Positions 8,806-41,105 of a stretch of DNA of 64,000 nucleotides are shown here, one piece after another. The first letter of the stretch is position 1. Every line of letters begins with the position of its first letter. A program made the position numbers and the translations under genes. The DNA is from Tomocerus qinae (taxonomy: Eukaryota; Arthropoda; Collembola; Entomobryomorpha; Tomoceridae): NCBI GenBank assembly GCA_020055645.1, contig CM034549.1, forward strand, positions 372,001 through 436,000, in the 5' to 3' direction. The notes under the pieces were generated by a model. The model had not been told where the DNA came from, did no database searches, and was given only the letters and a program-made list of their open reading frames with translations.

Positions 8806-9047
8806 TCAGCACCAGTCGTCTTCGTCTTCTGACAGCTGGTGGGGTCGGGGCGGTTCTAAATCCCCACCTGGTCCAGAGTCGGTGTAGCCCCCCAGTTGAA
8901 CTGCCGACTGAGTATGACGTCCATGGTGCCCATGGTACCCATTTGGCACGACTTGGCTCTGCCCACGTGGCGATGGTGGCAGTACTCGCGACCCGCACCC
9001 AAACGAGTGACCCTCCACATGCCCATTAACCGACACAACACCATCAT
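8806..9047 (-). CDS. cac: cac-like CaV2 calcium channel, last coding exon
   Basis: Encodes the extreme C-terminus of what I read as a presynaptic CaV2 channel alpha1 subunit, the pore that triggers transmitter release at active zones. The exon follows an acceptor ending TTATTTAG. It starts with two bases that complete a GAT codon with the G ending the exon at 20032, then runs 79 codons to a TGA at 8806-8808. Visible motifs are RVLPPSP, which fits the R-x-L-P-x-x-P ligand of RIM-binding-protein SH3 domains, a Gly/His/Pro/Ser-rich middle, and an acidic end finishing in DDWC. In the CaV2 family the terminal D-x-W-C is the ligand for RIM and Mint PDZ domains. Local GC is far above the surrounding intron. 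The 3' UTR lies below 8806; I could not fix a polyadenylation signal. The family call rests on the motifs plus exon phasing, not on an alignment. Confidence 0.8.
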
Positions 9048-9470
9048 CTAAATAACATTTAACATTATTTAGATTCGAACCAAATATTTATTTTATTACT
9101 ATGACTGACTAGGCATGCATATATATAACGAATAATGGCATATGTTGCCATTTTATGGGACCAAAAGTGAAAGAAATGATGATATATACAGAATGGTCGT
9201 AAATGAACTAAGACTTTTGACGCCAAGTCATAAGTCCTAGTTTATTTCCCACCACGCTGTATATTTTGGTAAAACGGCACCTAAGTATAACTTTAACGGT
9301 TTGACAGATTAAAAAACCTGTTAAGCAGTGCAACTAAGATATCTAAGAAAAAACATTTCACAAATAAATTCCCAACCAGCACCAAGTTTGATATTAAGCT
9401 TCGATTTTCCTCCAAAGTAAATATAGTATATAATATATAATATATACTGAGGAGCTAGATGTAAGTCATA
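9048..9470. other. intron sequence, nothing recognised
   Basis: AT-rich; a dinucleotide-like ATATAATATATAATATAT stretch at 9421-9448. Confidence 0.4.
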
Positions 9471-9575
9471 TAGACGTTTCCCACAATTGGTGACCGGTCA
9501 CTAAATTAACATGAATAGGTATTGAAATGACTACAGTACCTGCCTGTGTTATCCTGGAATTGTGGGAAACGTCTA
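9471..9575. mobile_element. 105-bp MITE, copy 1
   Basis: Inverted ends TAGACGTTTCCCACAATTG / CAATTGTGGGAAACGTCTA. The middle GGTGACCGGTCAC is itself palindromic. A second copy is at 52094-52201. Confidence 0.75.
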
Positions 9576-9714
9576 TTGACCAAAATGCTTCACAGCGCAT
9601 ACCGACAGGCAACGATTTTTAATTCCATGTTGAAATCCGTTCTCTGATTCTCTGTACTGAAGATTTCAATTTTAAATGCAGCTTTTGTTGCAATGCACAT
9701 GCGCGGACAAAATG

Positions 9715-11165
9715 CATGTTTCATAAAATTACAGGTTAAAAACCTGCAGAAATATACGGGGAGAAGGCCAGAAAAACTCGAAAACAAGATATAATTTAGA
9801 TGCCAAGATATAATTAAAGCTAGTAATTCAAAAAAATCTCCCCGTGCGTTTACCGCTATTTCACTTGCCTACTCTCTTCGAAAAAAACCATTTTAAAGAA
9901 CAAAAATACAATAGTGATTTAATTAAATCCTGAACCGGGGATGGAAAATATTTTCGACAATGGGAACACAGTCAAAGCTGCTATTTAGTGTTCTGTGGGA
10001 ACACCTTTTTTACAATCGTACATACATGTTCCCTCAGTAATTGTAACGACTCCAAATTATTTTCTGAAAATCAAAATTCAGGTTAAATTGTCGTATCCAT
10101 AGTAATTAAGCAACAATTAAGAGTATGAATTTTTCCGTATTAACAACAATTAACAGTAAAATATACTTTTATATACATATGACTGCGCTATAATTGTCAA
10201 CTAAATGTCCAAAGTGCAATAAAAATGTTGCGGTGTTAAGAAATTGCCACAATGTACAAAGTAACTGTGAGATTAGTATTTTTTGATTTTTTAGCCTTAT
10301 CTTATTTCAATATTTCCATGAAATTTATATTTTCAGTTATTAGCACTTACAGTCTAGTTGATAATAGTGTGAATGTTTTAGGCAAGTTTTAGGGTTGTTG
10401 CAAGGAAATTAACTGTAAACGCACGGGGAGATTTTTTTGAAGAAAAGTTTAAAATTACTAGCTTTAATTATATCTTGGCATCTAAATTATATCTTGTTTT
10501 CGAGTTTTTCTGGCCTTCTCCCCGTATATTTCTCCAGGTTTTTAACCTGTAATTTTATTTTATTGTTTTTCTTGATATATCTGGTTATAACTATGACATA
10601 ACTACGAACTACAAAATTTTTAACCAGATTATGAATATTTCGAAATTATTTATGTCGGTTACAATACAAGTAATACAGCACACGACAATGTACTCGAGTA
10701 AACATTCCCAACGCGCAACGAGTTCTATTTAACATGTCCCCATTTCCGAAATATATATCTATGCCTAGGTTATACTTTAAATACATTTATGGAAAAATGA
10801 TATATAGTATGCTATTTTATTTTTTTCGCAAAATTATTAATAATATATTCTATATGTATTTATATAGTGTTATTTTTTTGGGGGCTGCCGCCCCCAAACC
10901 CCCGCTTGAGGGCAGATAAATAGTTGGTATCCTTGTAGTTAGTAAAACAAGAGCATGTAAAGCGTAATTGTTTGTATTAGTATTGTAGAAATGAGCATTA
11001 CGGATATGCATGCCTATCACAATTTGTCATTTTCTATGCCTAGAATCGCACTCAATGCTAATTTTTTTTCCATCCCTGGAATTTTCCTCATTGTTTATTT
11101 TTTACAATTCCTGTAAGTTCCCTCAAGCCTAATATATTTTCCACTCCTGGAAATGTTATCAGCAA
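9715..11165. mobile_element. repeat family E, copy 1 (long inverted arms)
   Basis: Arms at 9730-9880 and 10410-10550 are inverted: CCCCGTATATTTCTNCAGGT, TTTTTCTGGCCTTCTCC and ACGCACGGGGAGATTTTTTT. The right-hand extension to 11165 (GC stem GGGGGCTGCCGCCCCC at 10880, then CCATCCCTGGAATTTTCC) matches the inverse of 35225-35720. No coding capacity. Confidence 0.6.
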
Positions 11166-11169
11166 TCAG

Positions 11170-12405
11170 CACTGAGATGAATGAACTGGAATTATTGGGA
11201 ATGAGAAGCGAATACTGCGTAATAACAATGTATCTTTAAATCCGACATTATTTCATTATTGAGATGATGCCTTCCAATGCCAATTCAGTGCACTCAGTAC
11301 TCCGTATCTACGGAGATTGGATTAGGAAACGGAACTTTTCAATGTGCATGGTATTCCTAGTCCATCTCCTATCCATCCAATATCCAATTGACTATGATGC
11401 ATGATGCATTTCCACCATTTATTACTTTTGGTGAAAATGAGACGTGTTGCAGCTTTATTAAATACTAGTAAACCCCAGCATGCATGACCTAATTTCAAAA
11501 GGTAGGCAATAATCATATTGGATATTGAATTTCGAAAGATTAATATTAACCCAGAATGTGGTTAACTTTTTTAAATGTAATATGCATATTAAATATTGAC
11601 TTTCCCTACCACACATAGATCAATACATACATAGGTGTAAATTCATTGCTTTATTTAGACGGTGGTTATACTATAGATTATTTTTTTCAGTGCATCTCAA
11701 ATTCAAATATTTAACTCTAGCCCTTTTAATAAATTACTAGTGAACCCAGCTAAGGGGCAAATCTAGCACTCAAGACAAATTCACCAGGCCACCCAACGCA
11801 GTAATAAAAACAATTTCGAAAACATCCCATTAGGTTGTTATGTTAACTTTGTAAATGCAAAGTACATTTAAATTAATACTATTAACTGTAGATCGTAGCA
11901 TCAAATACAGGGAACAATGAAAGACTATTTTCGAAAAAACTCCCACAAAGTTACCAAAAAGCTTCCTTGTAAAATCGAAATAATAAGATTCCCTCTAGGA
12001 TTTTGGAAAAACGTACAAACCCCATGAGTCAACTTACGAATAAATATTTTTAAAGAATAAATAGTGGCTCCCAGTACTGTTATTTAATTCTACAAAAAGA
12101 TATCTCAACTGACACAAAATAATTAAGAGGGTTGTAAAAAGTCAACCCAGCTCCATTAATAAATGTTGAATAAGTATGTCGATATTATAGCAGAACCACT
12201 TTGGATTAGAAGTTTTGAAATGCTATTTAATACGCACATTACGATCATTACGAAATGTTCCCTTTCGCTAATCATTTCTATTCGATCCCCACTCACCATT
12301 CAACCTTCTTATGTTCTATTTTTATTTAGACGTTATAATAATAATATGAAACGTGAAACGACTCATTTCGTTGGTTTAGAGGAATTGGGCTTGCGCATTT
12401 TGCTT
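11170..12405. other. intron, no gene; one dispersed repeat piece
   Basis: The block CCCTACCACACATAGATCAATACATACATAGG (first 15 bases at 11606) recurs at 12545 and 31953. The open frame at 12163-12585 has no recognisable motif. Confidence 0.45.
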
Positions 12406-12409
12406 TTAA

Positions 12410-12536
12410 GGAGCCTGCATATATTACGTGTGCAGTTGATGGGAGGAGGAGATACCCAAAAGTGTTACAGTCAGCACTTGCGTTACAGATCGAGGGGGGG
12501 GGGAGGATTTGCGTTACGTAATATATGCAGGTTCCC
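12410..12536. mobile_element. 127-bp hairpin MITE
   Basis: Ends GGAGCCTGCATATATTACGT and ACGTAATATATGCAGGTTCC; a run of nine G at 12494-12502. Confidence 0.65.
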
Positions 12537-13138
12537 TAGATTCTCCCTACCACACGTACATACATATATATATATAGACAGGTAAATTTATTGAAGTCTG
12601 CGATTATATATAGAGATTACATATTTTAATCGCTTAATTTTTTGCAATAACTATATTTGGTTGAATTAAAATTAATTATTACAGTTTTGATGAAAGCGTT
12701 TGAAATCCGAAACCCAATTTGCTATCGAACTTTAAATTTACATATACAAGAAAATATACGGTCCTCATAAATATATACATTTATATCCTTGCATTTCAAG
12801 GTCAATTTTGCAAGGATAGTTTATAGATTATAAATTACTCGACCTTCAATTTCAATTCAAAATAATGTGGGCAGGGGACATTGTGTCAAAATTTTAATTC
12901 GGGCTTGATTTGGCAAGCATCTCTGGAAAACATGGGTCTGTTTTGAAATAAACTTATGGTTACTTGGGCTACAAATGTACTTTTACACCCTTTTTGTGGT
13001 AGCGAACAGGTTAAGGCACTTTTCATAAAGTTGAAGTATAGGTCAAAATTTTCATACATAAATACTAATTCTATAAAATTATTTTCACTTACATCGTCAA
13101 AGGCTTGAGGAATGGTAAGAATTTCGCTCTTAAGTTAC

Positions 13139-13642
13139 TTAAAAAGGACATTGTATTGTTGTGTGGTAAAGCGATAATTCCCTTAAATAACATTCTTTAC
13201 ATACCGTAATGTCGATAACCTCTCTGTCAATGTAGATCTTGTCACAATTTAATCTGATTTGGGCTATTACCGATTTTATTACAGTGGGAATATTGCATTC
13301 TATGTACGAGGCTGCATCATTATTTAATGGCATTATCTTGCGATAATGCGAATACGAAATAGACTTCTCTACCCTATTTACGTCTACATTATTTAAATAT
13401 ATAGTAAATTTTTCCGAGATAGACCCGAGTTGGTTTCGAAGTTCACACTTATCAATAATCCTAGTCACATCATTTATATCTACTTTCTCAAATAGTGTAT
13501 CAACCTGTCTTGCCCAGTTATACCTTAAGTCTGTATTGTTATTTTCTGATGCCACATCATAACATATCCGTACCAGGCTATTACTTTCCTTAGACAGACA
13601 ACGGTATAAAAATTTGAATAAATTCTTAATTGCATATAACAT
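13139..13642 (-). pseudogene. LINE C-terminal fragment with C-x2-C-x8-H-x4-C knuckle
   Basis: A 167-codon minus-strand frame. The end carries C148-x2-C151-x8-H160-x4-C165-P, the zinc-knuckle-like motif at the C-terminus of many non-LTR retrotransposon polyproteins. It is preceded by an IAQIRLNC...IDREVIDI stretch of the right type. Directly after CPF the frame hits a stop, but coding-like sequence goes on in another frame for at least 60 codons, so a frameshift is likely. Upstream at about 13660 there is also a stop. No 5' part is present. It lies in a cac intron on the same strand as the gene. Confidence 0.62.
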
Positions 13643-13779
13643 AGTGTGACTAAACCCAGTTTTTTAATGATATATAATCTGAATATCATGCAATAAATGA
13701 CCTGTTAATAATGATAATTTCGTTTTGACTAGTAAAAATAAGTTATTTCAAGCTACAGTTGCAGGTTAAACCCCAGATA

Positions 13780-13928
13780 AAGTGTCACTTCCTTTTCACT
13801 TCTTCCGCAAAGGATCATGCGTAAATAAAACAAATGCGTTGCCCCAGGTGAGGATATTTTGAATTTTATGCAAAATTAGTAACTGAATAGTCCTCTTTTC
13901 AGGAGGAAGTGAAAAGGAAGTGACACTT
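13780..13928. mobile_element. 149-bp TA-flanked MITE
   Basis: Near-perfect inverted ends AAGTGTCACTTCCTTTTCAC / GTGAAAAGGAAGTGACACTT with TA on both sides, so Tc1/mariner-like. Confidence 0.8.
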
Positions 13929-14088
13929 TAAATAGGGTCTTACACACCAAAAATATTCCATATTGTCTCATTCTTATCCGAAAATCCGAACTAACCGTCC
14001 TCACAGAGCCTGCCATGCCGTCCACTCAAAACCTAGGCTATGAGGTGACCCTCTCGCTGTTACTCCCGCGTTTTATTAATACTGTATG

Positions 14089-14153
14089 AAAAAAAATGCT
14101 GCGCCCCAGGCTCCTTGTTAAACTAGGCTAAAATGAGGCGCAGCATTTTTTTT
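14089..14153. repeat. short inverted repeat
   Basis: AAAAAAAATGCTGCGCC pairs with GGCGCAGCATTTTTTTT around a ~30-base loop. Confidence 0.6.
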
Positions 14154-15309
14154 CGTCTAATTGTTTAATGGTTACACAATAGGCTGTCACGATGAAACCC
14201 CATGTTCTCTCAAGGCCTACGACATATATGCTACCAGTTAGAATTTATAGAGAATATTTTTAATTTTCGTTAGCGCGAACTATTTCCATTAGTGATGGTT
14301 GAGTAAAAGACGTAAGATAGAAGTAGACTGGAAGTTTCGTTTGTTTACTTTTACTGGCAGAAATACCCGCGAACATTATATATAAACTCTACAATCTATA
14401 GGTATATCTACATCCTTTCGCGGGGATTTCTACCACAAAAGAGTACTGAGTCACTCAAATATACACAAAGAAAAAATACTCTAGCTCTGCTTGTTTAAAT
14501 TTTAATACACTTATGCGTACTTTCCCATAGTTTACGAATCCACTCGCGCAAATCTACAATCTACAAAGTAAAGCGGGTATCATCCAACTATGTTTCTACC
14601 GAGTAGCACTTCGTGCTGGCTGGGATCATTTTGCCAACTTATGGTACCAAATTAACGAAATACCAAGGAGCATACACGGTTACCATGGTCATCGTCCCCT
14701 ACCCTACCAGGTACATCTGTAGAGAGGGGCAAGCATCTTTCAAAACCGAGTGGCGCTACGGTACGAAAAATAGGGAAGGGGGAATGAACAAAGGGAAAGA
14801 TGAAAAAAAGGAAGAAAGAAGAAAATCTACGGCTAGCCGTAACAGAAGCTCGCCTGAGTAAAGGGGACCGTGTACACATTTTTGGTAGAACAATAATAGA
14901 AACAGATTTATTTTGATTACTAAAATGAAATTCAAATTAGATCAGTATTCAAAAAAATCTAAATTGATTAATGCTGACTATGAAAATCAACAGAAAATCG
15001 AAACTGATTAATATTGATTATCAAACTGAACAGAAAATCAAAATAGATGATTCTGATTTGAACTCGAATTCGACTGCGTTCGAAAGTCATCGTATTCTCG
15101 GACGAACGGACTGTGCGATTCTATAAGCTGCCTAAATCAGGCGAACTAAAAAAGGAAGGAAAAATAAAAGGAAAGAAAAAAAGGAAGGAGGAAAGAAGAA
15201 CAGGGAAACAGAAGCATACTACGAAAAAGATAGAAAAGGAAGACGATAGGCTTCGAGCGATTAAAAAAAATAAGACATTTTTCCTTTTACAGTCCAACCG
15301 ATCCTGATT

Positions 15310-15605
15310 CATCAGCAGTATCCAGGCAACATTTCTCCTTCTCATTGCTCAATATCATATTCCAGAATGAATGTCTACTTGAAATGAAAACTATTAGGCA
15401 ATAAAATAGATGAGTATGACTGCATTGTAGCTTGCAACAATTCAAAATTTGCTAAAATGTCCCCATTTGGGTAATCTATAGAATTTTCGTCATAGAAATA
15501 GCCAATCAGAAGGCTGGATTTCAAAAAATTTCAGCTAAGCAGAAGGCTTATCGCCATTCCACAGGGCAAGAGAGGTCTGATGTTGGGTGATTCTAACAGT
15601 ACTTA
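15310..15605. mobile_element. single arm of the 0.9-kb TA-flanked family
   Basis: Matches the right arm of 28098-29045 and 54552-55459: TGAATGTCTACTTGAAATGA, GTCCCCATTTGGGTAAT, GGGTGATTCTAACAGTA. The other arm is missing. Confidence 0.75.
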
Positions 15606-15837
15606 CAGTAGGTGAACTCTTTTGGCTAATTGTTGAATTTTTTTGTTATTTGTTAAGCTTTAATCATTTAACAGTTTAACATCGTCTAAATTTGAAGACC
15701 CCTCTGCTGGAGTAAATAAACCTTTTAGTTTTAGTGTTATATAGCACCGCGAAATTTAATATTTGGTCAAATTGTAATTTCAACTTTTTTTATCGCAAAA
15801 CTCAAAATGATACGAAGATCAGAGCGTAAGAAACTGA

Positions 15838-16023
15838 TTGAAAAAGTATTTTACGACGGAATTTTTAATATACTATGGGCAAATACCAGAACTAGATACT
15901 AGACCTATTGATCCACTAGATGAAGTGGACGGTGACGACGAAGCAGAACAATATTATGGACAAGATTGTAATGTTAGGGAAGAGCGAAGAAGAGATTTAT
16001 TTAATTGGATAAATGGAAGATGA
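15838..16023 (+). pseudogene. possible Harbinger transposase C-terminal fragment
   Basis: An open stretch that starts right after an in-frame TGA and ends at TGA 16021-16023. It encodes an acidic segment (DPLDEVDGDDEAEQYYGQD) followed by a basic end (VREERRRDLFNWINGR). HARBI1-like transposases end with an acidic linker and an R-R-R/K-x-x-L tail of this kind, after the DDE domain. Only about 60 codons survive, and upstream sequence is out of frame. The call depends on the context at 16106-16270 and on the flanking TIRs. Confidence 0.35.
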
Positions 16024-16105
16024 CCACATATGAGTGAACAAATAAAAATAATTAGTTAATTTACATCTGCATACGAGTTTTTCGAGTTCAAACTCTTGAG
16101 CTAAT

Positions 16106-16270
16106 TTAAAATTTCATTTTCGCCAGCTCAGCATCATTTTGAAGTTTTAATTTTTGAAGATCTTTGGCTACTTTTCGCTGTTCTAATTCTTCTTTCCATT
16201 TCAGTCTTTCAAAATCTAGATGCTTTTTTTTGGATTGAATGTCCAATTTCACTGAATTTCTTTTTTGGTT
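16106..16270 (-). pseudogene. possible Myb/SANT-like partner protein, C-terminal coiled-coil fragment
   Basis: A minus-strand open stretch of about 54 codons from a stop near 16273 to TAA at 16106-16108. It is very rich in Lys, Glu and Gln with heptad-like Leu: KKKHLDFERLKWKEELEQ then further K/E/L sequence ending AELAKMKF. The DNA-binding accessory proteins of PIF/Harbinger elements end in such a charged coiled coil. Further upstream (about 16300-16380) similar sequence is broken by stops. It converges on the transposase-like fragment with about 80 bases between. Confidence 0.4.
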
Positions 16271-16719
16271 CTACGTCTTTTGATGGCTGAATTATTTTGG
16301 TTTGTTCAGGCTTTCAAATATGCTGTTGTAAGTCGTTGATGTAAAAATTACGTCCATCAAAATTCATTTTGGTTTTTGAATTGCCCAACAAATCATTTGC
16401 ATTAAAGAACAAAAAAGTAATACGAGTAAGGAACTAAAAATTTGACAGACTTTTGTTTCTTGGCGCTTCTGTCAAAGGATATAACGAATTTGTTATAGAA
16501 AAAACATGCCCTCCTAGGTGGTTAAAATGTTATGATAATGCGTTAAAATATAACTACTGTGTAATAGAGTAGGAGAAGTGACATTCACCTAGTATTTACT
16601 TACGATATACATATAACAGTACAAGAATTTTCCCATTCCGGGTTTAGGACGATGTTTGCACCTCTTTACAGATTTACCTGGTATAGGGGACCATGGTAAC
16701 CGTCTACTCCCTGGGAAAA

Positions 16720-17812
16720 TATGTTGGGGGATCGATTTCACAGTCCCCCAAAATTTGCGGTTAATATTTTTAGTACTATACTTTATTATTCATCATTCAC
16801 CAACACAAGCATTTGAAGCTGTAGTCATGGTGATAATGGATATAGTGGTCAGAAAACTAACGTAAGACGGCCGTTTATGTCATGTCGATTCCCCAGAGAA
16901 AAAAATCTGCGTTCGATCTACGTTCCTTGCGAAACACCGATATATTTGAATAGATAGACGCCCAATTGCACAAAGCGATCAAATTCGAATAGTAGCTACA
17001 TAAATGGCCAATTTTAATTTAAACTAAAACACATTTTTAAAATTTTCTTAATAACATTTTAGAATGATACTGTAAATTTCAAATTTTTAATTTATGTTGG
17101 AGAATAATATATAGTTTTGCATTAATGTTAAAATTCTTAATCTTTTACATGTATTTAAATCAGACAGCTGGCAAAAAAATCGAGGATGTTCGACCTCTTG
17201 TTTGTTGGGTATTTTGGAAGTAGTAGCAGGTTGTACCCTTTTTAGTTTTTGGGGGTGTGTTGTCAATCGTTCAGAAATCAATTATAGGTTAGAAGAAACT
17301 TGTGTAATTTTAAAACACACGATAGATAGCTCACATATATGAATGTACTAGTAATTCTAGCGGCTGCGAAAGCAAGGTGCAGAAGTAAAATATGCCATTC
17401 TGCTCAGAGTTTGCAAACGTATCTGCCAATGAAATGATTGGATTCGGTTCGAAATGAATCCCGCTTTCGCAGTAGCTCGCAGTTCTGCAACTAGTTGGTT
17501 GAGTTGGCTTACTGTTGATTCTATAGAAATAAGCGCAGATATTGTGCTTATTATATATCCATTTAAGTTCAGCTGCTCATATCTGCTCCATTCGAAGAAA
17601 ACAATTTTTTAATAAAGGGTTATTTTACTAGTGTACCAGCATTGTTTTGAAATCAACCCAGATGAATATTGCCATTTGCTAATAAATGATGCTACTGGCA
17701 ATGCAGAGAGGTATGAAGACGGACTAGGAGCTAATTTATTGTTCCAGATCTGTTTTGTTTTAAAATAATCATTTTAGCATATATACACCATCATACATAT
17801 GTATTTTATAGT
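16720..17812. other. intron, nothing recognised
   Basis: Only a loose inverted pair (AGCGGCTGCGAAAGC / GCTTTCGCAGTAGCT) at 17360-17480. Confidence 0.4.
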
Positions 17813-17813
17813 A

Positions 17814-17992
17814 CAGGGTTGCGCAAAAATAACTGGACCATAGGGATTATACATAGCAGTGTGCACTACTACATTAGAATACAATCCAAGGAGTGTTAGA
17901 ATTGCCATGGTTTCTGGTACCCCTAACCCAAGTTATATTGCTTGCTGACAATGCATAATCTCCTATGGCCCAGTTATTTTTGCGCAACCCTG
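17814..17992. mobile_element. 179-bp TA-flanked MITE
   Basis: Ends CAGGGTTGCGCAAAAATAAC and GTTATTTTTGCGCAACCCTG are perfect inverses flanked by TA. The family is Tc1/mariner-like. Confidence 0.85.
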
Positions 17993-18177
17993 TATATATT
18001 ATAACAGATAAAATATTTTTTTGATTTATTAATCTAATTTGAATGTATTGTTCATAAGAACTACTTTATGAAACACTATTAAGCCTCAGAAATTTTAATG
18101 TGGCTTGAAATATTTTTGTTGCACCTGAATGAATTTGTTCGCTTTGTGAATTGGCCCAATAATGCAATAATACTTAA

Positions 18178-18623
18178 GGTTGCTCATCACGCCTACATAG
18201 CAACCGCATGGGCCTATCTAAATGCTTGTTAAAAAATGCTTTACATCAAGCTTTATTCCTTCCGAAGATTACGGCCGATTTTTATGGGACTTACATTTTT
18301 GGAATCCTGGACAATCGAGGAACGCAGGAGAGAGGATGGACTTTTGATATTATTGCTTTAAATGCTTTTAAAAAAATCGAATTCCAAAAAAAGTGAATCA
18401 GTTTTAGTTTTTATACAATGTTGATTTTTTTTGCACCATTTAAAGTAATAATATCAAAAGTCCATCCGCCCTCCTGTGTTCCTCGATAGTCCAGGATTCC
18501 AAAAATGTAAGTCTCATAAAAATCGGCCGTAATCTTCGGGAGGAATAAAGCTTGATGTAAAGCATTTTTTAACACGCATTTAGATAGGCCCATGCGGTTG
18601 CTATGCATGCGTGATGAGCAACC
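18178..18623. mobile_element. 446-bp inverted-repeat element flanked by TTAA
   Basis: Two arms of about 190 bp (18178-18370, 18430-18623) start GGTTGCTCATCACGC, with TTAA on both flanks. A TTAA duplication is the piggyBac signature; a TA duplication with TA-ending arms would give the same picture. Each arm holds the mirror-image 62-65-codon frames, which code for nothing known. Confidence 0.65.
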
Positions 18624-18896
18624 TTAAACGGTTTGCAAATTAAAAGAGCATTTTTAAATTTCAAAAAGAGAAGGGTAAATAAATAAATCATTTTAAAAGT
18701 CACTAAGTTGCCAATTTTTGGAACCAAAACAATTAGAAAATTCCTTCATTGAGGTTCAGGGGTGGTTCAAAATACGGGGAAATTCAATGAGGGGCAGGTA
18801 ATGGGGAAGTATCTATGGCTACGATTTAAAATACACAGAGCCATAGAAATTTACTCTATGACAATACAGCAAAATGAATAGGGCATAAAAGTGACG

Positions 18897-19195
18897 ATTT
18901 TTTTTGGGAAACTTGGATCTAGTCCGAGAATATTGGTCGTAGAAAGACGAAGTTGGTCTCTAAAAACGCAGAAAATGTCAATTTATAGCAGCTTGCACTT
19001 AGATTCCTAATTTTTACCTCTGGTTACGAGATATTAATTAAAATTGCAATAACTCGCAAACGAAGGTAAAAGGTAGAAATCTAAGTGCAAGCTGCTATAA
19101 ATTGACATTTTCTGGGTTTTTAGAGACCAACTTCGTCTTTCTACGACCAATATTCTCGGACTAGATCCAAGTTTCCCAAAAAAAGTTAAGAGCGA
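18897..19195. mobile_element. about 300-bp hairpin element
   Basis: Arms CTTGGATCTAGTCCGAGAAT and ATTCTCGGACTAGATCCAAG, continued by long near-identical inverted sequence including GACGAAGTTGGTCTCTAAAA. Very few differences between arms, so recent. Confidence 0.75.
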
Positions 19196-19199
19196 TTAT

Positions 19200-20031
19200 G
19201 ATAGTCAAGCTCAATCGTCATTAGAAACCATACCTACCTCTTAAATGTCTATTTTATTTTTATTTATTTTTAATGGATATTCTCATTTCATTTTCTGTTC
19301 CGTTTCCCTACTTATCATTTATCAACTGAGGGGGACATCTTCCTAGGAAGAAGATCGAAATGCGAGCGTGCGTTTGTCTAGGGTGTTAAGCCAAGCCTTC
19401 AAAGTACTAACTATACAACCTTAAGCAAATGATTTTAATGGACTACAAATTACAAATTCGTCAGTTAATTGGGTCAGGCATCGAAATTTTTCGGAAAACA
19501 GACTTCTCTCCGCCTACTTCTTAAATTAATAAATGAAGTTGCACTGGAAATCTGGTAAAAATTTTACCTGAAAAAGTCTTTTGGTAAAAGATTTTGACAT
19601 ATACAAAAATCTGGGTTAAATGCTAGTTCGGGTAAAAAGATGGAAACTTAGGGGGAAAAGCTGATAATGATGATTAAGTGGGCGTAGTATAATGTGAGTC
19701 ATGACCTATTTCCTTGGAAATGAAAATATTTTCGATGCCTGGATTGTGTTTGCCCAATAGCAATAGCTCATAAAGTGTATGTATACAAATACATAAAAAT
19801 CAGTTGGGGAGTAGAGGAATACCTAGAGGTAGTTTAGCAATTTGTCTTCTGGAACGGAGGTCTCTCCAGAGTCCAGGATGAGGGGGGAAGGGGGAATGAA
19901 TTGTTGGCGTCAACCAACCTTGCCAGATCGAATATTTCATACTCTGCTTCGTTTGACAACCGTCAATCGACTCATGACATGACTCACGATCTTGCGGTTG
20001 AATAGGACATCTCTTTTGCCTGGTCACTTAC
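19200..20031. other. intron between cac exons D and E, no other feature
   Basis: The 75-codon minus-strand frame at 19800-20027 begins inside the donor site of exon D and is not coding on the evidence available. Confidence 0.45.
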
Positions 20032-20118
20032 CTGGAACTGCGTCTCTGAAATTTCGCACGTGTGTAGGCAGAAGGAGTGCAGACGGATGTGGAGGTGTAG
20101 CAGGCAAACGTCTTCCGC
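20032..20118 (-). CDS. cac: cac-like CaV2 channel, 87-nt internal exon with RIM-BP motif
   Basis: This has the best splice sites in the window: acceptor TTTGTGTTTGCAG before the first base and donor CAG|GTAAGT after the last. The exon is 87 nt with phase 1 at both ends, so it is frame-neutral. It encodes GRRLPATPPHPSALLLP and then a short basic stretch. RRLPATP matches R-x-L-P-x-T-P, the RIM-BP binding site known in CaV2 tails, and the opening G-R-R-L-P-x-T-P resembles the cacophony tail as I remember it. Because the upstream exon ends in a single G and the downstream exon begins AT, both inclusion and skipping keep the frame. Its intron towards the last exon is about 11 kb and carries a PIF/Harbinger remnant, a LINE fragment and several MITEs. 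Confidence 0.82.
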
Positions 20119-20422: not shown

Positions 20423-20429
20423 AATTCAC

Positions 20430-21195
20430 ACCACACTCAAAAAATATTTACATTGGTCGATTTTTATTGTCATTAGCCAATAAAATTGCAGAAATCAATG
20501 GCGAAATTTTATATGATTTTATTAACTGCCCCAGGTGATAAATATTGATGAAACAATGCTCTCAATACTCGATATTTTTTATGTGCACTTATGCTAAGAA
20601 AATGCAAACCAAGAGTTTTGGATATCATCAGAATCACATTTCACATTAAAATATATAGTTGTATACATTTTGATTTGTGTTAAAGTCTCTATATAGGTCT
20701 CGGACGAGATCGTCAATCATATACGCATCATTGGAACGACTTTACAATACTAGTCGGTCACAGGACCTAGGCCCTGTTATAAATAAAGCTAGTGTGTATT
20801 CCGGGGGCAATATTGTGCGGTGAGAAGAAAGCATTTCAGATGCACAGCTTTTTCTAATTGAACGTTTCATGGTTTCCCATTTAGTGAGTCGGCGTCGATG
20901 TAGAGATTTTACATTGATAGGGGACTTTTGACTTTGGTTTTAGAAAACTGTTCTTATCTCCGAACAGGAAGGAGGTTGGCAATTTGGCAATTGTGTATTG
21001 TTTTGCATCATAATGTAAATGGCCATATTTTAAATTTTCCCGCACATGAAATGATAGGAACCTTAAGCGCACCAAAAGCTGGAATTATTTGCATACAGAA
21101 CGCATGAACTGCTTTTTTATGAAATATGTTAAATTCAGTACATGGAGGTATGCGTTGGGGTACATTATTAAAAACATTAATTTGATGCACGATAG
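20430..21195. other. intron, nothing recognised
   Basis: Unique AT-rich sequence, except that GGGGTACANTATTAAAAACATT (21157) also occurs at 40257. Confidence 0.4.
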
Positions 21196-21197
21196 TA

Positions 21198-22219
21198 CAG
21201 GGTGTCAAACTAGGATTCCGGCCCTATGTATCTAAAGAACCGTAAGTAGCACGACAAAACCGTTGATACCAATCGAAAGCCCGTGCAAAGTTACATTGAA
21301 ACACCGGTTTTCATCAACTTATTCCTACGCATTCGCTTACACCAGCAGTTCTCCCAAAAAAAGTTGAAAATATAAATAAATTACTAGCTAATTCGTGACC
21401 AAATCTCTCGCAGGGGCTGAATTTAGACAGCGGTACTGTGTTGCCACTGTTTCCGCTGGCAGGTATGGGGGTGAGCGGCAACAGCATGACAGTGGAGACA
21501 GTGGCAAATACGGCAACAGTGGCGACACGCTAGAACCCCTGGCGGCAACAGTGGCGACATGCTACAACCACTTGCGGCGACACGCTACAACCACTTGCAG
21601 CAACAGCGGCGACACGCTGCAACCACTAGCGGCAACACTGACCAGCGGCAACAGAGACACATTAATCTGGTTTCCGTGTTGCTCTTGTCTTAGAGCATTG
21701 AGCTCAGAGCAACAGTGCACTGGCTTATATTAGGTTTAGTGGCAACAGATGAAATCAGATTAATGTGACTCTGTTGCCACTAGTGGTTGCAGCGTGTCGC
21801 CGCTGTTGCCGCAAGTGGTTGTAGCGTGTCGCCACTGTTGCCGCTAGTGGTTGTAGCGTGTCGCCACTGTTGCCGCCAGTGGTTGTAGCGTGTCGCCACT
21901 GTCTCCACTATTATGCTGTTGCCGCTCACCCCATACCTCCCAGCGGCAACGGCGGCAACAGCTGAAACAGTGGCAAGACAGTACCGCTGCCTAAATTCAG
22001 CCCCTGCGAGAGATTTGGTCACGAATTAGCTAGTAATTTATTTATATTTTCAACTTTTTTTGGGAGAACTGCTGGTGTAAGCGAATGCGTAGGAATAAGT
22101 TGATGAAAACCGGTGTTTCAATGTAACTTTGCACGGGCTTTCGATTGGTATCAACGGTTTTGTCGTGCTACTTACGGTTCTTTAGATACATAGGGCCTGA
22201 ATCCTAGTTTGACACCCTG
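21198..22219. mobile_element. TA-flanked long inverted repeat (Tc1/mariner-type ends)
   Basis: Ends CAGGGTGTCAAACTAGGATT and AATCCTAGTTTGACACCCTG are perfect inverses with TA on each side. The arms (about 215 bp) are nearly identical. Between them sits the foldback-type core at 21413-22004, so the whole locus can form a stem of about 500 bp. Confidence 0.8.
21413..22004. mobile_element. foldback-type core with 32-bp minisatellite arms, copy A
   Basis: Ends GGGGCTGAATTTAGACAGCG and the inverse. Each arm holds several copies of a 32-bp unit (GTTGTAGCGTGTCGCCACTG then TTGCCGCTAGTG) in opposite orientation around a short spacer containing ATTGAGCTCAGAGCA. Long inverted repeats made of short tandem units are the structure of Foldback elements. 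No transposase. Confidence 0.75.
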
Positions 22220-22741
22220 TACATACATACTGACATACATACCGACATACCGATTTTTATCGCGCAACTCGAACAAGACGATTATCTTTAGTAGTGATAG
22301 TGATGTGTAATTCATAGAGTCAAATCCGATATAGCCCGAAGCTGTATCAGTATTCATTACAAATTCGTACATTTAACATTAATGAAATTTTGTGAATGGA
22401 ATTGCTAACTTTATTGGCTAAAGCAAAAAGTAACCGAATAAGGGGTTTACTAGTTCGTATTTGAAAATCAACTTAAAAGTAACTATGCAGTTTAGTTCAC
22501 TTCACTCTCTAATGTTGCTAAATTGATAGTGATAGTCTGATAGTTGAGCTTATGCCGATTCGGAAGGATAAAGGTGTCTCATTTATCTGTGGTAGTTTAG
22601 ATTAGGACGCATCTCCATCCGGATGGAAAGCGTCTCGTGTATTGAGAGCCTAACTCATGACATAGGTCAGCTGACACTTGGGCTAGGGCTGTCGTCGGCT
22701 ATAATGAATCCAATAACTTGAGGTAAGAAAGCTTGACATAC
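22220..22741. other. intron, nothing recognised
   Basis: A short ACATAC microsatellite-like patch at 22221-22252; otherwise unique. Confidence 0.4.
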
Positions 22742-22854
22742 CCGATCGGCGGCCAGGAAGCATTGGATAGCTACCATTGGGGTGATACGGTCTGTGATGA
22801 TGAAATGGCGGACTTGGTGATCTTTCCAAACTGTTACCCGCTCTTTGTAGCAAT
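22742..22854 (-). CDS. cac: cac-like CaV2 channel, internal exon (Pro/His-rich tail)
   Basis: A 113-nt exon between the acceptor TTTTTTATAG and the donor GG|GTATGT. One leading base completes an AGA codon with the AG that ends the exon at 38481. Then come 37 codons and a trailing G. The peptide is rich in Ser, Pro, His and Arg, with SPSPPFHHHRPYHPNG followed by a Gly-Arg-Arg stretch. Such low-complexity basic sequence is usual in the distal C-tail of CaV2 channels and has no catalytic role. Matching phases on both sides (2 in, 1 out) and the same strand as the neighbouring exons are the main evidence. It sits inside a long TE-filled interval, with intron lengths of 15.6 kb upstream and 2.6 kb downstream. 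Confidence 0.74.
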
Positions 22855-28004: not shown

Positions 28005-28097
28005 GCATCTTGGTGCTATGGATACTAAACTCCTATGTATACCCAAATACCCATAAACTCCTACGTATACCCACTTTCTAATACATACTGTAGTTTA

Positions 28098-29045
28098 CTG
28101 TTTGAATCACCCAACGTCAGACCTTTCGTTGCCCTGTGGTATGGCGACAAGCCTTCTGATTGGCTGAAATTTTTTGAAATCCAGCCTTCTGATTGGCTAT
28201 TTCTATGACGAAAATTCTATAGATTATCCAAATGGGGACATTTTAGCAAGTTTTGAATTTTTGCAAGCTACAATGCAGTCATATCATGAATCATCTATTT
28301 TATTGCCCAATTATTTTCATTTCAAGTAGACATTCATTCTGGAATATGATATTGAGCAATGAGAATGTTGCCTGGATACTACAGATGAACCAGGATCGGG
28401 TGATCAGGAATTAGCAGAAACGGTCTGATGTTTAGATATATTTAGTATTCAGACATCTGTCAGTAATCTGTTTGTTGAGTTATTATTTTAAGGGTCGTAA
28501 GAAGAATTTGTACGATACTAGTTTAATATTAATCACAACAATCACAACATTCTTTGTTCGATTATGCACTTTGTATTTATATATCCATAGTGTGTGTTCT
28601 TCCGACTTATACTTGTTTCTCATTGCTCAATATTGTGTTACAGAATAAAAGTCTACATTGAAAGGGAAACTGGTAGGTAATAAAAATAGATGATTCATAG
28701 TTTATGGCATAAAATTTATAGTGTAATAACTGCATAAGATGTGCATGTAAATAGCTCAATATATACATTTCTCATTCTCATTGCTCAATATCATATTCCA
28801 GACAGAATGAATGTCTACTTGAAATGAAAACTATTAGGCAATAAAATAGATGATTCATGATATGACTGCATTGTAGCTTGCAAAAATTCAAAACTTGCTA
28901 AAATGTCCCCATTTGGGTAATTTATAGAATTTTCGTCATAGAAATAGCCAATCAGAAGGCTGAATTTCAAAAAATTTCAGCCAATCAGAAGGCTTGTCGC
29001 CATTCCACAGGGCAACGAAAGGTCTGACGTTGGGTGATTCAAACA
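28098..29045. mobile_element. Tc1/mariner-like nonautonomous element, 948 bp, copy 1
   Basis: Ends CTGTTTGAATCACCCAACGT and inverse, flanked by TA. Arms of about 285 bp. Nearly identical to 54552-55459; further arms at 15310, 55600 and (diverged) 47690. No transposase. Confidence 0.85.
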
Positions 29046-29060
29046 GTATACATATATATA

Positions 29061-30620: not shown

Positions 30621-30994
30621 TATGAAAAAAACAGTCAAAGAGAAACCAAGGGATGCCTAAACCAGTTAAAGGTCCTTGGTTATAACCAAGGAGCATGGAT
30701 GTTGTTATAGTATCATCGTTTAATAAGGAGGGCCAAGTAGAGAATTCCCCATAAAGGATTTTGAAGATCTATAAGGGACGTTTTCTATTTCAAATTGGGG
30801 TAAAAATCCCTTATGATTATGATCATAATAACAAGTTCATTTCCCAACGACGTTGTGGAATGATGTAAGATATGATATCACATCATTAATAATAAACTAG
30901 GCTAGAGACATTGGATTGCAATTTCATAGAAAGAAATTAATTCCAATTTCCGATTTTTCTACGGACTGGCAACAACTATAAAAAGGTTGTCATT

Positions 30995-31257
30995 ATGGGG
31001 AAGAAATGTGCTATTTGCGGTAGCAAGGCTAAGGGGTTCACAACAATCCATGAGTTCCCCAAGAAATGTCCAGAAATTAGATCAAAATGGATTAAAATCA
31101 CCACATTGTGCAGAAATAAGCCTTTCAATCCAGACAACTTCGGAATATGTAGAGCGCATTTTGATACAAACTCATACAAAAGAGAATGTGAGGGAAAGCG
31201 AAAGTTACGGGATTGTGCTATTCCAAGTCTTTTCTTGCAAGGAACTGGTAATCAGAG
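30995..31257 (+). pseudogene. THAP-domain first exon, interrupted by a transposon
   Basis: The ATG opens directly into a THAP zinc finger, a C2CH DNA-binding fold found in P-type transposases and in host regulators. Visible are C5-x2-C8, H19-E-F-P22, W32, then C52-x2-H55-F56, with 43 residues between the cysteine pairs. An AVPTIF-like box (CAIPSLF) lies at about residues 74-80. All invariant THAP positions I know are present, so the domain itself looks intact. A candidate splice donor (ACTG|GTAATC) follows at 31247. At 31258 a TA-flanked Tc1/mariner-like element begins and destroys any further reading. A TATAAAAA stretch lies only about 20 bases before the ATG. It lies on the plus strand inside a cac intron. 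It could be the remnant of a THAP transposon or the first exon of an intronic gene; no downstream exon is recognisable. Confidence 0.7.
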
Positions 31258-31259
31258 TA

Positions 31260-32568
31260 CTGTTGCTATCACGAATTCGGGATATGGGTATCATAAAAAC
31301 CGCAGTCGAAGTCTCTTCTCATTGGTGGATTCAAATTGTTTTTAGCCAATGGGATTGCAGCTTTCATTTACAAAACTTTATATGATTTCCATAAATCACC
31401 CCAAGGGGGAATGTTTATTTTTGTTTACTACATTTCATGACAACACATAATACACTGAATACACTCATCGATATACCCAATTTTACGACGATACGAACAA
31501 ATCGTATTGACATAAATATCGATTATTTGACTGTTCATGTAGTCGGTACAATTTAACCATACTTGGAAGCATAACAAACAGTATTGCTAATTGTATCACA
31601 TTACGAAGACACAGTAAAACAATATATCATTACCATTTTCTTTCAGGGCCGCAGCCAGAAAAAAATTTCGGGAGGGGCACCGAGAAAAAATTAGCTAAAG
31701 CGATTTTTTGCGATTTTGGATAAAAATTTCTTTAGTTTTCTCGATTTCGGGGGGGGGGGGGGCCCGTGCCCCGGTGCCCCCCCTCGCTGCGGCCCTGTTT
31801 TCTTTACATGACTCTAAATCTGAAATTTGTTCCAAATACAACACTTTCAGCTTAACTACCATTATCCTAAAACTAGAAACTGTGCATAGTGCTTATCAAG
31901 TCGGGGATTACAACATGGACTGGATATTTGCACATTATGAAATCATTCAGCTCTCCCTACCATACATACATAGGTGGATAAATTTAAAAAGTCTAGGATT
32001 ATATTATAGATTAAACATGTAGAAGTATTATGTTTTTAGGTAAAGTAGTTCTATTTTCTTGTTGTAAAAGAGGGTACATTGAGAGTGTTTAGGTATTCAG
32101 ATTCAGAGTCATGTAAATCGTAATTGTAATCATGTAGTCGTTTTATTGTGTCTATGTAATGTGATACAATTAGCAATTTATGTTTAGATCGCAGATAGAT
32201 CGTGTTATGCTTCCAAGTATGGTTAAATTGTATCGACTATCATGAACAGTCAAAGTTCCGTTTAGTAATTAATAGTGCTAGCAAGTTTCAGTAATTAAAT
32301 ATTTATGTCAATACAACTTGTTCGTATCGTCGTAAAATTAGATATATTGATGTGTGTATTCAGCAGTGTATTATGTCTGTTGTAATGAAATGTAGTAAGC
32401 AAAAATAAACATTCCCCCTTGGGGTGATTTGTGGAAAGCATATTATAAAATTTTGTAATTGAAAGCTTCAATCCTATTGGCTAAAAACAATTTGAATCCA
32501 CCAATGGGAAGAGACTTCGACTGCGGTTTTTATGATACCCATATCCCGAATTCGTATGATAGCAACAG
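31260..32568. mobile_element. Tc1/mariner-like nonautonomous element with long TIRs
   Basis: Inverted arms of roughly 350 bp (31260-31625 and 32190-32568) begin CTGTTGCTATCA and are flanked by TA on both sides. That is the target duplication of the Tc1/mariner group. The 1.3-kb element has no transposase. It carries a nested 154-bp hAT element at 31644-31797. It has jumped into the THAP reading frame. The arms contain the motif AATAAACATTCCCC, also seen in the 62-63 kb family. Confidence 0.75.
31644..31797. mobile_element. hAT-type MITE, 8-bp TSD TTTTCTTT
   Basis: A 154-bp insertion with ends CAGGGCCGCAG and CTGCGGCCCTG, flanked on both sides by TTTTCTTT (31636-31643 and 31798-31805). Terminal CAGGG and an 8-bp duplication are the hAT signature. 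The interior holds a run of 14 or so G and GC-rich palindromic sequence. Nested within the mariner-like element at 31260-32568, so it is the younger insertion. Confidence 0.85.
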
Positions 32569-33289: not shown

Positions 33290-34270
33290 ATTTCTCGACT
33301 ATCAAATTTGCCAGTAACTTTTTTTTGGAAATTCCCTAAGGATCTGACACCACTGGTCCTACAGACGTTGGTATTGGTATTGGTATTGGTAAGCTTTATT
33401 GACGATTTCTGGCCAGCTTATAGCTGTTCTCTCCCAGGTGTCACAATAAGTACTTTCTTAGCCTAATTAATCCTAATTAACATTAAATTAAATTTTAACT
33501 AGTCACTTATGGAAACTAAACACAAACTGGTGTTCAAATTCTACATGACATAAATAATTGCACAACGTCTTTTTTGAACAAATTATGGGATTTTAGAAAC
33601 GAGCATTCAGGAAATTTATATCGTAGTTTGTTCCATATCTTTACTGTACGATACTTAAGGCTTCTCTGTGCAGTAGTGGTACGCAAGAGGGGTACCTCTA
33701 AATTACCTTCGCAGATTGAGTTACGCTCATGGTTTTCCAATTTATAAAAATTTTCCAAAGCCTGGATGTTGGGGGGAAACATCAAGGCTTTGTGAGCTTC
33801 AGTGATTTGGTAGTACGCTATACGTTCCTTTACCGAAAGGATACCAGTTAATTCGAGTATAGAGTTATTATTTAGATTACTTAGTTTAGGGTAAAGTTTT
33901 AATATTTCTATAATAATGTTATCTATTTTGGCAATTTTACAATGTACAATAATTTTTAAAAAATCCTTCGATACTTATTCTATAATAGTTATTTTGAAAA
34001 TTCCACATTTTGGGCTTTGGCTTGAAGATATAAATTCGCAATATATAATTCACAAAAAACACATTTTTCGGTTTCAAACGATGATGTCTTCAAGTCGAAG
34101 ACCAAAATGTGGAATTTTCAAAATAACTATCATAGAATAAGTATCGAAGAATTTTTTAAAAATTATTGTACGGCTGTAGGACTAGTGGTCTCAGATCCTT
34201 AGGGAATTTTCAAAAAAAAGTACGAATTTTTCCGATTCCCATTTACCCTCTATGATAATTTTTGCTGGTT
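33290..34270. mobile_element. TIR family M, copy 2, split by a LINE fragment
   Basis: Left end TTCCCTAAGGATCTGACACC (33324-33343) is the inverse of the right-end GGTCTCAGATCCTTAGGGAA (34187-34206). The inner stem at 33950-34165 pairs around ATTTTGAAAATTCCACATTT. A LINE 3' fragment (33366 to about 33944) interrupts the left arm. Confidence 0.7.
33366..33944 (-). pseudogene. LINE 3' fragment (non-LTR RT C-terminus) with (ACCAAT)n tail
   Basis: On the minus strand an open stretch runs from about 33935 to the stop at 33534. It reads through AKIDNIIIEIL, the ...LSVKERIAYYQ... region and ends with RSLKYRTVKIWNKL. The R-S-L-x-Y-R-x-x-x-I-W-N-x-L block is the common tail of CR1/L2/Jockey-like reverse transcriptases, just after the RT domain. 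The 3' end finishes in four copies of a six-base repeat (TTGGTA on the plus strand, 33367-33390), as in LINEs with microsatellite tails. It is 5' truncated and sits inside the arm of family M. Confidence 0.75.
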
Positions 34271-35220: not shown

Positions 35221-35224
35221 GAGA

Positions 35225-36545: not shown

Positions 36546-36556
36546 TAAAAAATAAC

Positions 36557-37568: not shown

Positions 37569-37569
37569 A

Positions 37570-38450: not shown

Positions 38451-38480
38451 TATGAATAAATTTATTAAACGTAAGTATAC

Positions 38481-38775
38481 CTCGGAGGTAGGAATCCATT
38501 GCTGCTCCCTCGTTCGGGGGTAGAGGGACTAATTGCACTGTCATGATACCCCGGTCTGAATCTTACGGGAGAAAGCGAAAATTCGTCCCCCCTTAGTTTA
38601 GCTCGGGCTCTTCCTCTACGAGACGTTTCTACGCGTACCAAGTCAACCATATCTGCTACTGCATCACTGAAGCCCACATCATGTGGATGCAATCCTCTCC
38701 GAGTCGGAGAAGGAGATCGTGATCTGCTTGGTCGTCCATGACCATGTCCATGATGCGGATGTAAATAAATGTTTT
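38481..38775 (-). CDS. cac: cac-like CaV2 channel, internal exon (HGHGHG and Arg/Ser-rich tail)
   Basis: A 295-nt GC-rich exon in AT-rich surroundings. The donor is AG|GTATAC at 38481/38480. The likely acceptor is ATGAATAG before 38775, giving two leading bases, 97 codons and a trailing AG. The peptide opens with a HGHGHG stretch and SRSRSPSPTRRG. It continues with a probably structured block, HPHDVGFSDAVADMVDLV, then a basic segment and SPSTPERGSSNGFLPP. I take it as distal tail of the same channel because its exit phase (2) fits the exon at 22854. The acceptor has a weak pyrimidine tract. A second AG about 60 nt further in (before ATCACG) would need a different donor in the exon at 40970, so the 5' edge is the least certain part. 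Confidence 0.72.
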
Positions 38776-39170
38776 CTATTCATAAAAGGTACATCTATAA
38801 AGAGTCTAAACCAATTACTTACAATCTACATGTCCCACTACAAAAACTGCAAATACCGTAAAATCAGAATTAATTCGCCCCGTTCAAAATAGGTGACCCC
38901 CTCCGTGTCAACTATTATATTTTCACGTAAAAAAGTACCTTCAAAAAATAATTGACACTACTCGAATTATTTTACTTCCCTATTTTGTATAGGTATATAC
39001 GATCTACGTTAGTGGGATAAACAGCAGAGTTGCTTGGAAAAAGCTAATGAATTGGAGATTAGGATTTACTTAGATTTTTAGATTATGATCAGATAATAAG
39101 CAATTACTCAGCTTAGCTCAAGATTTTAGTGAAAATGTATCTCTAAGAAGGCCGTATCTAGCCAGATTAG
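38776..39170. other. intron between cac exons A and B, nothing else recognised
   Basis: AT-rich, leads into the 42-bp satellite. Confidence 0.4.
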
Positions 39171-39171
39171 T

Positions 39172-39835
39172 CCTAAGGCAGACAACCAGCTGATCATTTG
39201 TCATTTAAGGCAGACTTGACAACCACCTAAGCTGATCATTTGTCATTTAAGGCAGACTTGACAACCACCTAAGCTGATCATTTGTCATTTAAGGCAGACT
39301 TGACAACCACCTAAGCTGATCATTTGTCATTTAAGGCAGACTTGACAACCACCTAAGCTGATCATTTGTCATTTAAGGCAGACTTGACAACCACCTAAGC
39401 TGATCATTTGTCATTTAAGGCAGACTTGACAACCACCTAAGCTGATCATTTGTCATTTAAGGCAGACTTGACAACCACCTAAGCTGATCATTTGTCATTT
39501 AAGGCAGACTTGACAACCACCTAAGCTGATCATTTGTCATTTAAGGCAGACTTGACAACCACCTAAGCTGATCATTTGTCATTTAAGGCAGACTTGACAA
39601 CCACCTAAGCTGATCATTTGTCATTTAAGGCAGACTTGACAACCACCTAAGCTGATCATTTGTCATTTAAGGCAGACTTGACAACCACCTACGCTGATCA
39701 TTTGTCATTTAAGGCAGACTTGACAACCACTTAAGCTGATCATTTGCCATTTAAGGCAGACTTGACAACCACTTAAGCTGATCATTTGCCATTTAAGGCA
39801 GACTTGACAACCACCTAAGCTGATCATTTGTCATA
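39172..39835. repeat. 42-bp satellite, about 15-16 copies
   Basis: Unit AAGGCAGACTTGACAACCAC followed by CTAAGCTGATCATTTGTCATTT, head to tail. Most units are identical. The first is 10 bases short, and the last three carry single changes (CTTAAG, TTTGCCATT). It lies within the intron between cac exons A and B. Uniform spacing without variable spacers rules out a CRISPR array. Confidence 0.95.
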
Positions 39836-39839
39836 ACTT

Positions 39840-40969
39840 GGCAGCTAACTAAAAAATAGCTAAAAATCGCTGTATTTAATATTCGTTTGTATTCAACCTA
39901 CAACATCGTGTAAAAGCTTGTTTTCAATATAAAATCCGTTATTGAAATTCCAAATCGCACTAATAAATGTATTATACGCAGAGTAGGGCTTAGACAGGCA
40001 GTATCAATGTATAAGCCAAATTCGACCTCTGCCAATTGAAATTGCATGTTGGACCCGATCGCCGTAAGACTATCAACTGTTAACATATAGCCAGCTGTCG
40101 GTTGTGTTCACTTGGTCAGGTGATTGGTAGCGCATGAATAGGTTGGCGGTCTTTAGTCTTACAGCATAGACGTCAACCACACGCAACATGCTATTGTCGT
40201 CCGAAGTTACCCGAAAAAGACACTTTGCTAATAGTGGACTTCGGGTAAACTGATTTGGGGTACACTATTAAAAACATTCATTATTCAATGCGCGTGCGCC
40301 AGATTATCTTTATACTTTAGTCATGATAGTATATATAATACATATTTGGTAACGGCTCTATGGAAACTACTGTTAACAAATCTTTAATTAATTCATTCAA
40401 GCAGACGCCATACACAAAGTAGCAGCGCAATTTAATTTTTGCGTAGTCTTATAATAATGGAAAAGACAACTAGAAAAGCTAAAGCTGGAAAGCCAAAATT
40501 AATGAAGGTAAATAGACTATATAGGAATAGCTCACTTGAAAGAAGTCTCGGAACACCGAAAGTGTAACTGCCCCGACTTTTTCTTCAAACCACACAATAG
40601 AAATCTCTGTTGACGAACTAATGGAAACAGACTGAACACACTTAATATCTCTTCTGTTCTATCATTTTTATACTTCCCTCATTTGACACTGCCCTTTGTA
40701 GTATTTCCAGAATTTAGCATTTTAAGAAAAGAATTTGAATTCACCTTGAAACGATATTTTACCCTTATCATTTTAATTGACCCCTCTGGAGTCAACTATT
40801 TATTTTTCGTACGAATGGCTTCGTGGAAACAATGGTTAATCCTGGTGAATTAATTCGGATTTTACGGTAAATGTTAATCGGGTTTTTTGTTATTTTACTT
40901 ATGGATTGTTCAGAGCTTAAAGTGATTTTGTTGTGGAAAATCTTATTGTTATCTACAAACATGACCGAC
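39840..40969. other. intron, nothing recognised
   Basis: Unique AT-rich sequence; no exon with usable splice sites. Confidence 0.4.
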
Positions 40970-41105
40970 CTTTAGTAGAATATTCATCTTCGTCCATATC
41001 TTGCAGAGAGTCCCGATCAAAGTCGTCTTTGTTTTTGTTGGAAGGATCCAAAGGACTAGGACTCCTTTCCTTGACACTCCCAACTAAGTCTTGAAGCTCA
41101 ATGGC
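40970..41105 (-). CDS. cac: cac-like CaV2 channel, most upstream exon seen in the window
   Basis: A 136-nt exon read as 45 codons plus one base. The acceptor is GTAATCTATAG|GCC after a T-rich tract. The donor is AAAG|GTCGGT, weak at positions +3 to +5. The peptide starts AIELQDLVGSVKERSPSP and continues into a strongly acidic Asp/Glu stretch with SLQDMDEDEYST. Entry phase is 0. Exit phase is 1, which fits the two leading bases of the exon at 38775 to give a GAA codon. The charged, Ser/Pro-rich character suits a channel tail segment downstream of the IQ region, but no diagnostic motif is present, so membership rests on strand, order and phase. An alternative donor GTAGAT about 17 nt further on would change the phase. 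Confidence 0.6.

Follow-up and report, generated by a model that had tools for sequence, protein, structure and literature searches.

Can the end of a large channel gene be recognised when its last exons are short and lie scattered over 32 kb of repeats? The question is raised by a stretch of the Tomocerus qinae genome, here called the window, of 64,000 nucleotides without a single N (C4:372001-436000 of a 334,443,149-base assembly of 115 contigs, a 334-Mb genome), in which a preliminary description had recognised the C-terminal tail of a CaV2 channel of the cacophony type. The analysis presented here indicates that the feature is almost certainly the 3' end of a springtail (Collembola) CaV2-type (cacophony) voltage-gated calcium channel alpha-1 gene. 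The channel is well known and the gene an ordinary orthologue, unusual only in small docking-motif changes of its tail.

Five exons of a channel tail

The five minus-strand exons of the preliminary description, with phases 0-1, 1-2, 2-1, 1-1 and 1-stop, are all present where it had placed them, bordered by AG and GT and in frame (Table 1). All five acceptors are AG and all four internal donors are GT, the donor of exon 4 being perfect (CAGGTAAGT). Once spliced, the tail forms a single open frame, 290 codons and then a stop, with neither an internal stop nor a frameshift, in agreement with the roughly 290 residues ending in DDWC that had been read. The statement that no frame of more than about 100 codons marks the tail came close, although exon 2 lies within a stop-to-stop frame of 104 codons. 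Pfam gave no domain in the 290 residues at E up to 1, and phmmer found no match to the tail among PDB sequences at E up to 10.

Two springtail channel tails, those of Orchesella (P0021) and Folsomia (P0022), were compared by tblastn with the window and, as a control for chance, with 100 dinucleotide-shuffled windows. The top score in the shuffled windows was 27.3 bits, whereas exons 1-5 score 30.8-107 bits, in order and on the minus strand. Exon 1 is the weakest of the five (33.5 bits with Orchesella, 30.8 with Folsomia), and it additionally fits by phase between exon 2 and the upstream exon encoding the IQ domain, which ends in phase 0. Exon 2 reaches 70.9 bits with Orchesella and 107 bits, at 77% identity, with Folsomia. 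Exon 3 reaches 61.2 bits (79% identity) with Orchesella and 58.2 with Folsomia, exon 4 44.3 bits (71% identity) and 42.4, and exon 5 52.0 bits (48% identity) and 56.6. In a global alignment, the joins from the IQ exon to exon 1 and from there through exon 4 fall in or beside aligned sequence, and the join between exons 4 and 5 lies beside a block that is missing here.

The CaV2/cacophony identity is borne out by the discovery of most of the channel on the same strand, upstream of the tail. The gene occupies about 232 kb of C4, leftwards from at least 612371 to 380806, and its long introns are filled with repeats. Matches to two springtail CaV2 proteins (identity of at least 50%, E of at most 0.001) form an ordered series of 31 non-overlapping minus-strand hits, which runs from domain I, S1, at C4:612371 into the window; 27 of the 31 lie outside it and four inside. 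Tail exons 1 and 5 fall below this filter and were seen by tblastn of the tails. Among solved structures, the domain II exon matches CaV2.1 (1.1e-100), CaV2.2 (1.4e-98) and CaV2.3 (6e-96), then CaV1.3 (3.1e-75), and its best matches are ordered CaV2.1-2.3, then CaV1, CaV3 and NaV. Judged by its predicted protein, the four-domain channel resembles CaV2 more closely than CaV1, CaV3 or NaV. A search of 41106-64000 for IQ and tail motifs produced no convincing match, and the EF-hand stretch and IQ motif were later found outside the window, in an exon whose segment C4:443794-444030 (minus strand) is the top Ca_chan_IQ match of the whole genome (4.1e-29, 108.9 bits). The rest of the gene had been placed entirely beyond the 64 kb; the upstream channel exons do lie outside, but one cassette exon (51143-51337) lies inside and had been overlooked. 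The window contains the last five exons of the gene and this one exon of 65 codons, between the IQ domain and the tail.

Relatives of the tail were sought with the spliced tail appended to a still incomplete model of the gene and scored over the last 350 residues. The comparison is limited to proteins of similar length, and for this reason a tail-only query had found only short relatives (five, all unnamed); a query with P0004 found 17, one of which is named for its organism (krill). The longer query returned 484 proteins at E of at most 0.001. Names and motif counts given here and below come from the best 120 of these 484, which include many isoforms of the same species, and the counts are not independent. 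The top two matches are springtails, Orchesella dallaii (4.6e-96, with 50% identity over the entire 350-residue query region) and then Folsomia candida (8.6e-94), followed by Daphnia, decapods and insects. Specific names, where shown, are arthropod CaV2 "type A subunit alpha-1" or cacophony, the other entries being hypothetical, unnamed or nameless. The preliminary description had expected similarity to arthropod CaV2 proteins, and in a search equivalent to blastp the best matches are full-length CaV2/cacophony channels, springtails first.

Four paired exon candidates were also observed upstream of the window (C4:464331-606662). The members of each pair match the same channel stretch, and they may be mutually exclusive.

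Table 1. Positions of the exons, exon candidates and repeats (window coordinates unless C4 is given)
Feature	Position	Strand	Length or copies	Remarks
Tail exon 1, AIELQDLVGSVKERSPSPL...EDEYSTK	40970-41105	-	136 nt	AG/GT, phase 0 to 1
Tail exon 2, ...PHDVGFSDAVADMVDLVRVETSRRGRARAKLRGDEFSLSP...NGFLPPR	38481-38775	-	295 nt	AG/GT, phase 1 to 2
Tail exon 3, LLQRAGNSLERSPSPPFHHHRPYHPNGSYPMLPGRRSG	22742-22854	-	113 nt	AG/GT, phase 2 to 1
Tail exon 4, GRRLPATPPHPSALLLPTHVRNFRDAVP	20032-20118	-	87 nt	AG/GT, phase 1 to 1; presumed RIM-BP SH3 ligand
Tail exon 5, ...RVLPPSP...SEDEDDWC and stop	8806-9047	-	242 nt	AG acceptor, phase 1, TGA; presumed PDZ ligand end
Cassette exon, NSSTVGLLACIMGM...	51143-51337	-	195 nt, 65 codons	phase 0 to 0; between IQ exon and tail exon 1
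EF-hand/pre-IQ and IQ exon	C4:443761-444178 (71761-72178 in window coordinates)	-		exon end 7.8 kb past window
Paired exon candidates 1	C4:606546-606662/595507-595611			
Paired exon candidates 2	C4:545894-545992/539197-539286			
Paired exon candidates 3	C4:491851-491961/487463-487687			
Paired exon candidates 4	C4:466415-466507/464331-464423			
Tandem array, 20-bp unit	57783-59272		74.6 copies	
Tandem array, 42-bp unit	39188-39834		15.4 copies	99%
Fold-back elements	21195-22222, 28093-29051, 54543-55407, 60953-61440, 62511-63225		arms 116-264 nt	arms 94-98% complementary

Docking motifs and a cassette exon

The tail carries two sites of the pattern RxLPxxP, namely RRLPATP at the start of exon 4 and RVLPPSP in exon 5. 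Both had been taken for motifs of the type recognised by RIM-binding protein (RIM-BP). The equivalent of the first in Drosophila is the Cac peptide IGRRLPPTPSKPSTL, which was crystallised with RIM-BP SH3-II and SH3-III (PDB 4Z89, 4Z8A; PMC4536467; this paper and the two cited below are drawn on from excerpts). The second has counterparts in both springtail proteins and in very few of the other arthropod proteins among the best 120. Within the last 520 residues, RxLPxxP occurs once in 116 of the 120 relatives, not at all in one, twice in one (P0134) and three times in two, the springtails; a fragment, P0001, has three sites. The tail ends in SEDEDDWC, and a DWC end is found in 113 of the 120. 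The PDZ domains of RIM and Mint have this DDWC end as their consensus ligand (PMC11405698, PMC10657410). In the same genome, a one-way search for RIM-BP-like SH3-II/SH3-III exons gave four matches (C3:44727673-44731464, best 1.8e-17, 58-77% identity), one of which has a stop inside the matched stretch.

These motifs suggest how the tail might tether the channel at the presynaptic active zone. The segment GRRLPATPP would bind an SH3 domain of RIM-BP, the DDWC end may be bound by a RIM or Mint PDZ domain, and in some isoforms the cassette could alter the proximal tail.

The cassette frame reads NSSTVGLLACIMGMVHKDE...SSSQLPNG. It matches an insert in Folsomia isoform X5 (P0022 1646-1684; 39.7 bits by tblastn) that is absent from Orchesella P0021, and with the cassette as phmmer query against 140 proteins, P0022 was the sole clear match among the matches listed. 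The reading frame is kept whether the exon is included or skipped, and its use is probably optional. Its splice sites are weak (acceptor TAG, donor GTTTGC), the donor end having been set by phase and alignment, not by reads; such sites fit a regulated exon, and alone they lend this view little weight. A loose pattern akin to the cassette, written to fit, follows the IQ domain in 23 of the 114 CaV2 proteins with a recognisable IQ motif among the best 120, several of the 23 being isoforms of one species. Further cassette exons were sought in 41106-72300 (E up to 0.5) with the IQ-to-tail segments of the listed CaV2 proteins in which the same test recognised an IQ motif (114 of 120); besides the IQ exon, only 51143-51337 gave a match below 0.05.

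The missing middle block and the alternatives

Between their counterparts of exons 4 and 5, Orchesella and Folsomia hold about 65 extra residues (INFPRLN-SPTRM ... RELPREP ... LSFEQAVALGRG). This INFPRL/RELPREP/LSFEQA block was not found in the intron between exons 4 and 5 (9048-20031, minus strand), and a profile search of 264 kb in every frame did not show it either; the phases of exons 4 and 5 fit each other without it. The block appears to have been lost in the present gene. To the earlier exon model the analysis adds one exon.

An alternative possibility is that the exons are real, but that the last intron hides an exon with the missing block, so that the true tail is longer. The commonness of the block speaks for this, since its first motif (INFP) occurs in 97 of the 120 relatives, its second (SFExA) in 83 and at least one of the two in 101, Orchesella and Folsomia holding both. 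Both motifs are absent as written from 19 of the 120, of which 14 have a PLSYEAALA variant of the second; the arthropod tail block INFPxL ... SFExA, which was not found here, is not a strict defining feature of CaV2. The profile detects P0021 and P0022 (58 and 59 bits) and gives nothing at E below 20 in the 264 kb, where eight matches appear at E up to 100, none of them in the window. It is, however, insensitive to divergence: P0001, which holds a related stretch (LQFPRLTDSPT, RRLPREP), scores just 1.7 bits, so a strongly diverged block would escape it. Direct tblastn for the block gave only weak, short or stop-bearing matches among the matches listed, there are no Ns to conceal an exon, and exons 4 and 5 are in phase. 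Taken together, a hidden exon is considered unlikely.

Several points weigh against the exon model and the role proposed for its motifs. As the searches between exons 4 and 5 did not turn up the conserved block, a strongly diverged extra exon could sit there. The end of exon 4 and the first residues of exon 5 are unaligned with relatives, and the join between these exons, which has the least alignment support, rests on splice sites, phase and order because its flanking residues are unmatched in those proteins. The exon junctions and the splicing in vivo are predicted from sequence. The cassette donor scores 4 of 9, which is equalled or beaten by 56% of the GTs on that strand of the window. With regard to docking, Drosophila cacophony is reported to localise normally even with a fluorescent protein blocking its C-terminal end (PMC10657410), and what Mint contributes is given as unclear (PMC11405698).

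A decayed or duplicated copy of a CaV2 tail, as opposed to a working 3' end, is very improbable. Long, repeat-rich introns would be in keeping with such a pseudogene, but 290 codons are open without a stop or frameshift, the splice sites are AG/GT, and the exons are ordered downstream of channel exons, with the genome's best IQ match just upstream. That a pattern-seeking reader put together chance open frames, as short exons and a spliced tail lacking a Pfam domain might suggest, is refuted by five separate, ordered, one-strand matches, which all score higher than anything in 100 shuffled windows and so exclude chance.

With the feature read as the 3' end of a CaV2 gene, its motif counts admit a tentative history. 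It is conceivable, if rather doubtful, that RIM-BP docking sites multiplied in springtail CaV2 (three in Orchesella and Folsomia, one in 116 of the 118 others listed) and that the middle site and the conserved block were then lost in the present lineage. If true, the number of docking sites evolves piecewise, perhaps tuning the number of RIM-BP molecules per channel.

Surroundings and comparison with known channels

The introns from the IQ exon to exon 5 are 2.2-20.4 kb long and rich in repeats, including inverted-repeat elements with arms of up to 264 nt. The fold-backs at 28093-29051 and 54543-55407 are members of a single family, with about 96% likeness along 300 nt. The window has 108 stop-to-stop frames of at least 70 aa, and a Pfam match at E 0.01 was obtained for one of them, a THAP-domain frame at 30941-31342 (plus strand, 1.4e-9) that overlaps an arm of a long inverted repeat (31271-32555). 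This frame can be transposon-derived or a small host gene; the data agree with the claim that the window holds no host gene besides the channel, but they do not prove it. Two minus-strand frames, 24417-25127 and 33534-33974, resemble by eye the 3' ends of reverse transcriptases of non-long-terminal-repeat retrotransposons and have no significant Pfam match. Neither RNA families (Rfam, gathering thresholds) nor tRNAs (ARAGORN) were found in the window.

Even with its exons spread over 32 kb of repeats, the gene end could be read correctly from raw sequence, and the resulting exon model of a springtail CaV2 tail is well supported. Springtails differ in how many RxLPxxP sites they carry; these differences, together with the candidate post-IQ cassette, provide small natural experiments on the anchoring of CaV2 at release sites.

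The closest known counterpart is the CaV2 of Orchesella dallaii (P0021, 1885 aa), in which 328 of 466 aligned residues are identical from IVS6 to DDWC in the global alignment. Its stretches corresponding to the exons follow in the same order from IVS6 to the DDWC end, and RRLPATP is identical. It differs in having the INFPRL-RELPREP-LSFEQA block, three RxLPxxP sites and no cassette, whereas the present gene has two sites and a cassette, and the block was not found. Folsomia candida CaV2 isoform X5 (P0022, 2073 aa) has a cassette insert, NSSAAGLLRCLMGM..., in the same place, between IQ and IELHDM, yet it has the middle block, three RxLPxxP sites and the end DENDWC. Further afield, Drosophila cacophony is alike in its Cac peptide, IGRRLPPTPSKPSTL against GRRLPATPPHPSAL in the present gene (PMC4536467). 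A single RxLPxxP-type site is stated for both Drosophila and Aplysia in the excerpts of PMC10657410, in contrast to the two sites of that pattern here. Aplysia CaV2 shares the DDWC end, for which, in Aplysia, binding to the RIM PDZ domain was demonstrated in pull-downs. Aplysia also resembles the present gene in having alternative exons immediately past the IQ domain, although there four exons follow it, all alternatively used, as opposed to the one candidate described here (PMC10657410).

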